A DNA stretch of 64,000 nt from Clostridium sp. Cult2. GTDB taxonomy: Bacteria; Bacillota; Clostridia; Tissierellales; Tepidimicrobiaceae. The notes beneath the pieces are model-generated. The model saw nothing but the letters and a program-made list of their open reading frames with translations. It was not told where the DNA came from and did not search any database. Numbering within the stretch: the first letter of the stretch is position 1; each line of letters begins with the position of its first letter. Where the stretch lies: NCBI RefSeq assembly GCF_021655075.1, contig NZ_PPXX01000065.1:1-64000 (forward strand), read 5' to 3'. Below are positions 311 to 981 of this stretch, one piece after another. Both the position numbers and the translations under genes were made by a program.

Positions 311-360
311 TTGAAAGACAAATGGCATTTACAATTACATGCGGGTGTAGCTCAGTGGTA
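311..360 (+). repeat. 50-bp direct repeat, copy 1 (ends in tRNA-Gly 5' half)
   Basis: Positions 311-360 recur at 437-486 with one mismatch (A versus T at 333/459). The repeat covers about 30 bp of upstream flank plus the first 20 nt of tRNA-Gly. Copy 1 breaks off in the D-loop; copy 2 continues into the intact gene. The 5' half-tRNA itself is 341-360. Confidence 0.95.
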
Positions 361-411
361 TAAGCAGAGAGCCCAAATCAGGCTTTTCGATTTGGTGCGA
401 ATCGCTTAGTC
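361..411 (+). ncRNA. tRNA-associated structured element, copy 1 (after half tRNA-Gly)
   Basis: A 51-nt element begins immediately after the D-loop GGTA of a truncated tRNA-Gly. I read an outer stem TAAGC/GCTTA (361-365/404-408). An asymmetric loop AGAGA versus GAATC follows. The long inner helix joins G371-C372-CCAAATC to GATTTGG-U-G397-C398, with one bulged U, and is capped by a pyrimidine-rich loop. The same 51-nt layout recurs at 797-847. All base changes within the helix keep or add pairing (371/398 G-C to A-U; 379/389 C-G to U-A). A tandem G-A/A-G juxtaposition beside the inner helix resembles a kink-turn. I do not recognise it as a known family. Confidence 0.7.
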
Positions 412-436
412 AGGCAAAACTGAGTGCTAACGAAAT

Positions 437-486
437 TTGAAAGACAAATGGCATTTACTATTACATGCGGGTGTAGCTCAGTGGTA
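437..486 (+). repeat. 50-bp direct repeat, copy 2 (runs into intact tRNA-Gly)
   Basis: Partner of 311-360, with one mismatch. The pair brackets the 51-nt element and 25 bp of spacer. This is the footprint expected if the element arrived together with a tandem duplication of the tRNA 5' end. Confidence 0.95.
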
Positions 487-540
487 GAGCCCCAGCCTTC
501 CAAGCTGGTTGCGAGGGTTCGATCCCCTTCACCCGCTCCA
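467..540 (+). tRNA. tRNA-Gly (TCC)
   Basis: Intact tRNA: acceptor GCGGGTG pairs with CACCCGC, the anticodon loop is CTTCCAA, and CCA is encoded. It is the complete counterpart of the half-gene at 341-360. Confidence 0.97.
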
Positions 541-770: not shown

Positions 771-796
771 ATCATGACCCATTAGCTCAGGCGGTA
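771..796 (+). repeat. 26-bp direct repeat, copy 1 (tRNA-Lys 5' half)
   Basis: Identical to 901-926. Nucleotides 776-796 are the first 21 nt of tRNA-Lys and stop at the same D-loop GGTA point as the half tRNA-Gly. The structured element follows directly. Confidence 0.95.
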
Positions 797-847
797 TAAG
801 CAGAGAACCCAAATTGTGTTTTTCAATTTGGTGTGAATCGCTTAGTC
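797..847 (+). ncRNA. tRNA-associated structured element, copy 2 (after half tRNA-Lys)
   Basis: Same length (51 nt) and architecture as 361-411: TAAGC/GCTTA outer stem (797-801/840-844), AGAGA versus GAATC loop, and an inner helix A807-C808-CCAAATTG with CAATTTGG-U-G833-U834. Relative to copy 1, two pairs change on both strands and one further pair forms (G816-C824). The flanks after GTC are unrelated to those of copy 1. This sets the element boundary and argues against simple duplication of a larger segment. Confidence 0.7.
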
Positions 848-905
848 CGTTCCACAAAGGTCAATGGAAAAACAAAACTTTTACTGTAGTTAATTAAACT
901 ATCAT

Positions 906-981
906 GACCCATTAGCTCAGGCGGTAGAGCACCTGACTTTTAATCAGGGTGTCCGGCGTTCGAGTCGCCGATGGGTCACCA
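906..981 (+). tRNA. tRNA-Lys (TTT)
   Basis: Intact gene, preceded 58 bp upstream by its own 5' half plus element. The anticodon loop is CTTTTAA, acceptor GACCCAT pairs with ATGGGTC, and CCA is encoded. The first 21 nt lie in the second copy of the 26-bp direct repeat (901-926). Confidence 0.97.

Follow-up and report, generated by a model that had tools for sequence, protein, structure and literature searches.

A new structured repeat family outside Rfam with a class that targets stable-RNA genes

Background

Genomic islands that integrate in tRNA genes split their target, carry a copy that restores the gene and leave a displaced fragment at the far end (Islander, PMC4383910). Their crossovers lie in the anticodon loop, the T loop or the T/acceptor junction, and 159 of them have 5' fragments against 3760 with 3' fragments (PMC4383910). 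For archaeal integrases, att sites reaching over the D-loop have been noted, and in the accessible part of that account no D-arm crossover of the type reported below is described (PMC8371274). The start of the window (the whole stretch of 64,000 nucleotides from Clostridium sp. Cult2 that was analysed) is a cluster of 14 tRNA genes found with ARAGORN, and two of these genes are preceded by a short hairpin, here called E, which with its non-repeated tail forms a unit of about 76-105 nt. Such units resemble the islands in all three respects, and a displaced fragment together with a restored intact tRNA was found in 79 cases. The islands are however many kb long and have a tyrosine integrase. The E unit is too short for a gene, and near 80 copies no mobility gene recurs. 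In all units the crossover lies in the D-arm at GGNA^GA and the displaced fragment is always the 5' part, which is unlike the Islander islands (PMC4383910).

Several other systems share some of these properties. REP and BIME sequences with their Y1 proteins have a short irregular hairpin, many copies and a strand-specific structure, as has E, but E shows no link to Y1 and no GTAG/GGAG tetranucleotide at its foot, and it has tRNA and 5S targets and long direct repeats. Bacterial MITEs are also short, non-coding and dispersed at unrelated sites, some of them with direct repeats, whereas the duplications at E vary between 20 and 50 nt around a unit of fixed length, and no transposase terminal repeats were found in the tRNA class; nor did we find a parent transposon for E as a MITE with duplications of 20 to 50 nt. 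IStrons and group I introns in tRNA genes (PMC4227781) are structured elements rendered harmless to the gene they have entered; E has no ribozyme core (no Rfam match), and is made harmless via duplication and not by splicing. SINE-type retroelements have a tRNA-derived part, a structured body and long variable duplications, but this is a resemblance only, as the tRNA part of an E unit comes from the local target and differs per site, with no sign of reverse transcription.

The tRNA-Gly and tRNA-Lys units

The two units in the window have the following parts, R1 and R2 being the left and right copies of the direct repeat.

311..360, + strand: R1 of the Gly unit, 30 nt of upstream sequence and the tRNA-Gly 5' part (341-360), a displaced fragment ending in GGTA
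361..408, + strand: E hairpin core of the Gly unit (fold z -2.9; covariance models R1/R2; covariation)
361-411, + strand: the Gly element as drawn in the original prediction, the E core and the GTC after it
409..436, + strand: non-repeated tail of the Gly unit, GTCAGGCAAAC common to Acetobacterium Lys units
437..486, + strand: R2 of the Gly unit, the second copy of R1, with its end at GGTA^GAG within the intact tRNA
467..540, + strand: intact tRNA-Gly(TCC) (ARAGORN; Rfam tRNA)
771..796, + strand: R1 of the Lys unit, 5 nt of upstream sequence and the tRNA-Lys 5' part (776-796), 100% identical to 901-926
797..844, + strand: E hairpin core of the Lys unit (fold z -3.5; covariance models R1/R2)
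845..900, + strand: non-repeated tail of the Lys unit
901..926, + strand: R2 of the Lys unit, with its end at GGTA^GAG within the intact tRNA; the site is empty in genomes G016 and G017
906..981, + strand: intact tRNA-Lys(TTT) (ARAGORN)

The original prediction described a copy of half a tRNA-Gly, a direct repeat around a folded element and the same layout at tRNA-Lys, and all three descriptions are borne out. Positions 341-360 are the first 20 nt of tRNA-Gly(TCC) and stop after the D-loop GGTA, with the element starting at 361; the 50-nt repeat (311-360 and 437-486) has 98% identity, and at tRNA-Lys a 26-nt repeat (771-796 and 901-926) is 100% identical, the half tRNAs at the two genes being 20-21 nt long. 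The 55 nt at 357-411 recur at 793-847 with 87% identity, and base pairs are preserved despite the sequence differences between the two E copies, each of which folds better than 198 of 200 shuffles (z -2.9 for Gly and -3.5 for Lys). These two are the only E copies in the Cult2 genome.

A BLAST search within the window's GTDB family, with the Gly element as query, gave copies in four genomes (G010, G015, G016 and G017), each placed between a tRNA 5' part and an intact copy of the same tRNA, with Phe and Cys instead of Gly and Lys. The same arrangement in four genomes of the family rules out that the two window copies are chance duplications, and an assembly artefact is ruled out by the recurrence of the layout in single-contig genomes (G016, G020, G175, G238, G245 and G616) and in cultured named species.

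Structure and distribution of E

E is a single bulged hairpin with a core of 42-48 nt, TAAGYAGRGRNCC...GGTGNNNRTCRCTTA, and a variable apex of 3-9 nt. In nine sequences of the window's GTDB family 16 base pairs are kept in 100%, and among 44 distinct copies both partners vary in 12 of the 18 pairs. Covariation scores 0.341 compared with 0.119 +/- 0.009 in shuffles, and the signal is lost on sliding the partner. The pairs include 21 G-U cells but not a single A-C cell, so the top strand of E is the folding strand, which points to one folded strand. At pairs 9-40 and 10-39 most copies have G-A/A-G and others a Watson-Crick pair, and a kink-turn was for that reason rejected. In Acetobacterium (L308-L310 and L262) some copies have an enlarged apex, giving about 60 nt in total, alongside 42-nt copies in the same genome.

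It had been stated beforehand that no RNA family or mobile element with this insertion point was known. In covariance-model scans of the window and other E loci, E had no Rfam match. In open-licence papers we found no description of E and no printed core sequence. E is a new structured repeat family outside Rfam, widespread in anaerobic bacteria, with a class targeting stable-RNA genes. A first covariance model, built from the nine sequences of the family, matches 61 of 249 genomes of the order with up to 24 copies per genome, and a second one, built from 44 varied copies, has matches in 22 of 391 genomes drawn from the whole class. Among the matches listed from a pattern scan of GTDB species are Clostridium carboxidivorans, magnum, neonatale, drakei, ragsdalei and luticellarii, as well as Acetobacterium, Tissierella, Anaerosalibacter, Alkaliphilus, a Synergistes MAG and four Flavobacteriales. 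Phage and plasmid records (BLAST) and IMG/VR (pattern) gave no E match.

Insertion site, spacing and turnover

We collected about 70 distinct units of the tRNA class, in the order 5' part of tRNA X, E, tail and intact tRNA X, where X is Lys, Cys, Thr, Gly, Phe, Val or Leu(CAA). In 70 of 70 tabulated units the left junction lies between GGNA and E, and the right one between GGNA and GA inside the D-arm of the intact tRNA; in tRNA-Cys, where both GGTA and GGCA are present, the break is at GGCA^GAG. Of 262 tRNA genes whose D-arm contains GGNAGA, 85 have a unit, as does 1 of 224 that lack the motif (Fisher p = 5.5e-25), a contrast that holds although the counts come from loci fetched for holding E and are not genome-wide rates.

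The end of E and the second junction are 79.2 +/- 2.9 nt apart (75-86) over seven tRNA types, and 77.5 +/- 0.9 nt apart in Cys; so constant a spacing suggests that the distance from E is measured. Despite it the tails mostly show no alignment between lineages, although they are alignable within some genomes, and the idea that the tail is a conserved element end was for this reason rejected. A tRNA-like acceptor stem formed from the tail was also considered, but it occurs in the Cys units of one family only and is not general. The target duplication varies between 20 and 50 nt while the unit length is constant.

Units are also found in tandem. In G020 there are eight before tRNA-Thr and four more elsewhere, and arrays occur in G022, G023, G181, G466 (L306) and Acetobacterium as well, with a period of 119-128. 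Within the window's genus, G000 has a unit at tRNA-Lys and G016 and G017 have none, their Gln and Lys genes being 4 nt apart; at tRNA-Phe and tRNA-Cys it is G000 that lacks the unit and the others that have it. One tail is common to units at different tRNAs (Thr/Lys in G175, Lys/Phe in G245), as expected if a unit moves between tRNAs. In G017 (L015, 380-500) tRNA-Met and the half tRNA-Phe are separated by about 120 additional nt, and a strong palindrome, CCTTGATAC..GTATCAGGG, stands before tRNA-Phe.

That E always follows a tRNA 5' half at the D-loop, a check put forward in the original prediction, holds with great precision for this large class, but many copies lie elsewhere, chiefly in Clostridium and Tissierella, and E is therefore not a tRNA-specific RNA. 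In a non-random sample of 255 copies examined, 117 are flanked by a direct repeat, whose end lies inside an intact tRNA in 79 cases; the remaining repeat-flanked copies mostly belong to the interior of tandem arrays at tRNA genes. Many copies outside tRNA genes have no obvious flanking repeat. At three rRNA loci in G278 an antisense E lies just behind the 5S gene, where the duplication comprises 32 nt (the 5S 3' end and the terminator) and the unit of 122 nt has the same length as at tRNA genes. The same architecture, with a period of 122-123, was found in G022 at a heptamer repeat with GGNA^GAAATCC that is not a tRNA, and in L098 39 nt are duplicated at a site outside genes.

Discussion

E may be the recognition hairpin of mobile repeats that are very small, non-coding and probably non-autonomous, and may act as DNA; this is the most economical explanation, and we lean somewhat towards it. 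Mobility of the units is strongly suggested. The structure, the site, the duplication, the fixed spacing, the arrays, the dispersed copies and the species with and without a given insertion are all seen directly in the loci; we infer the movement itself, a dedicated enzyme that reads E and cuts the site, and an action of E as DNA and not as RNA. "tRNA-targeting mobile element" and "repeated insertion", two readings offered in the original prediction, fit best, but that the mobile form is RNA rather than DNA is unproven, with E being antisense at 5S and 16S.

The half tRNA could instead be part of a cis-acting RNA, in which it pairs imperfectly with the tail under E and the tail may switch to the identical 5' half of the real tRNA, so that E would control the folding or processing of the next tRNA or yield a stable tRNA-half RNA. 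The half tRNA equals the intact one in 50 of 66 units, with the two leaders near-random in 35 of 64, and it tracks species-specific changes of the intact tRNA; in related units the identity is 90-100% in R1, 47-71% in the tail and 26-51% in the upstream flank. Pairing between R1 and the tail is better than with shuffled tails (fold z -0.67, p about 2e-5) and better than with the tails of other tRNAs (permutation p 0.0008). These observations, and the G-U but no A-C pairs in E, speak for an RNA. The pairing signal is modest however, and the controls (parallel pairing and reversed R1) are weakly positive too. The tail of the 5S unit shows such pairing as well. We take the complementarity of tail and half tRNA to be suggestive only. 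It could mask the duplicated half from the real tRNA, or serve movement. Against an RNA stand also the orientation of E, sense at tRNA genes but antisense to the transcript at 5S and 16S so that no sense is conserved, the same architecture and spacing away from tRNA genes, the many copies without any tRNA, and the patchy presence of units within one genus. We find a cis-acting RNA rather unlikely. Either selection or repeated recombination within the repeat could conserve the half tRNA beyond an inert remnant, and the arrays favour recombination.

Passive spread would need no dedicated enzyme: as the DNA is replicated, templates would be switched or genes converted between hairpins and between short repeats. 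It would go well with the tandem arrays of period 119-128, the near-perfect short direct repeats and a leader similarity that ends sharply at variable points. It accounts poorly for a GGNA^GA junction that is exact even in Cys and Leu with their different D-arm sequence, for the fixed distance from E to the junction, and for the strong covariation of E across unrelated contexts in two phyla, and it seems to us decidedly unlikely. A recurrent mobility gene near E was not found at 80 loci, the largest cluster of neighbours being ABC-transporter-like and at scattered distances. The irregular hairpin with single-base bulges and one folded strand would suit a REP-like sequence mobilised by a REP-associated transposase of the Y1 (HUH) type, and Y1 proteins of 255-320 aa are present in most E-bearing genomes. 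E occurs however without Y1_Tnp in G023, G174 and G248, many E-less genomes have Y1_Tnp, and none of 24 Y1 genes has an E within about 1 kb. To our knowledge long target duplications are not expected of Y1 transposition, which also counts against such a transposase, and we give it very little credence.

If E marks a mobile repeat acting as DNA, a unit of about 76-105 nt (E and tail) would come to sit at GGNA^GA in the tRNA D-arm, where the enzyme would read the hairpin, join at this site and duplicate 20-50 nt of the target, that is the tRNA 5' part and some of the leader. The left copy would be left behind as the displaced half tRNA, and the right copy would be joined to the tRNA 3' part, so that the tRNA is whole and the insertion tolerated; it is the target duplication that would let essential genes survive. 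Recombination or slippage between the direct repeats would build the tandem arrays, could excise units cleanly and may help to keep the half and the whole tRNA alike. Several features count against a mobile repeat: no transposase or integrase could be tied to E at the loci examined, a variable duplication with a constant unit length fits no standard cut-and-paste mechanism, many copies outside tRNA genes show no obvious flanking repeat, and the half tRNA is better conserved than the tail, more so than an inert remnant should be.

A more far-reaching proposal, which we put forward tentatively and hold to be possible but doubtful, is a self-standing class of micro-mobile elements. Their bulged hairpin of 42-48 nt would be recognised by a nuclease or recombinase that makes its cut in a stable-RNA gene (at GGNA^GA of the tRNA D-arm, or in 5S) a set distance away, copies the target, thereby sparing the gene, and gives rise to arrays; the half tRNA, kept like the real tRNA and paired with the tail, would be in use by the element or the host. 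E has a covarying structure in two phyla and lies outside Rfam. Its insertions are found in the cell's most constrained genes, with a spacing like that of a ruler and at a D-arm site not listed for known integrases. If it is mobile, its enzyme would be site-specific, hairpin-guided and worth finding; if it is regulatory, it would be a new way of controlling a single tRNA.

Copies in other contexts

Near-identical dispersed copies were seen in G235, G236, G238, G202 and G451, and elsewhere E is a plain dispersed repeat, accompanied by additional hairpins in Clostridium and by arms of heptamer repeats in Tissierella. In several Clostridium loci (L143, L144, L148, L157, L163, L180, L183 and L186) E and a second hairpin are central in a longer multi-copy palindromic repeat, GAATCCAGG..CTCCCAGT / TGGGAG..ATCGGATAA, and an Rfam scan of L143 gave no match. 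In Tissierella and G022 (L058-L065, L071-L080) E lies between tandem heptamers (GTGAATA, GTTAGTA), in some of these loci with inverted heptamers at the far end, and so resembles a heptamer-ended MITE. An antisense E about 10-15 nt upstream of the 16S rRNA 5' end was noted in L278 (G451) and L131 (Clostridium homopropionicum). In the four Flavobacteriales (L119, L128, L167 and L169) E begins exactly at the stop codon of one gene, which from its protein we take to be methylmalonyl/isobutyryl-CoA-mutase-like, and in Flavobacterium terrae (L128) E is followed by several more E-like copies interspersed with GTCGAAG palindromes.
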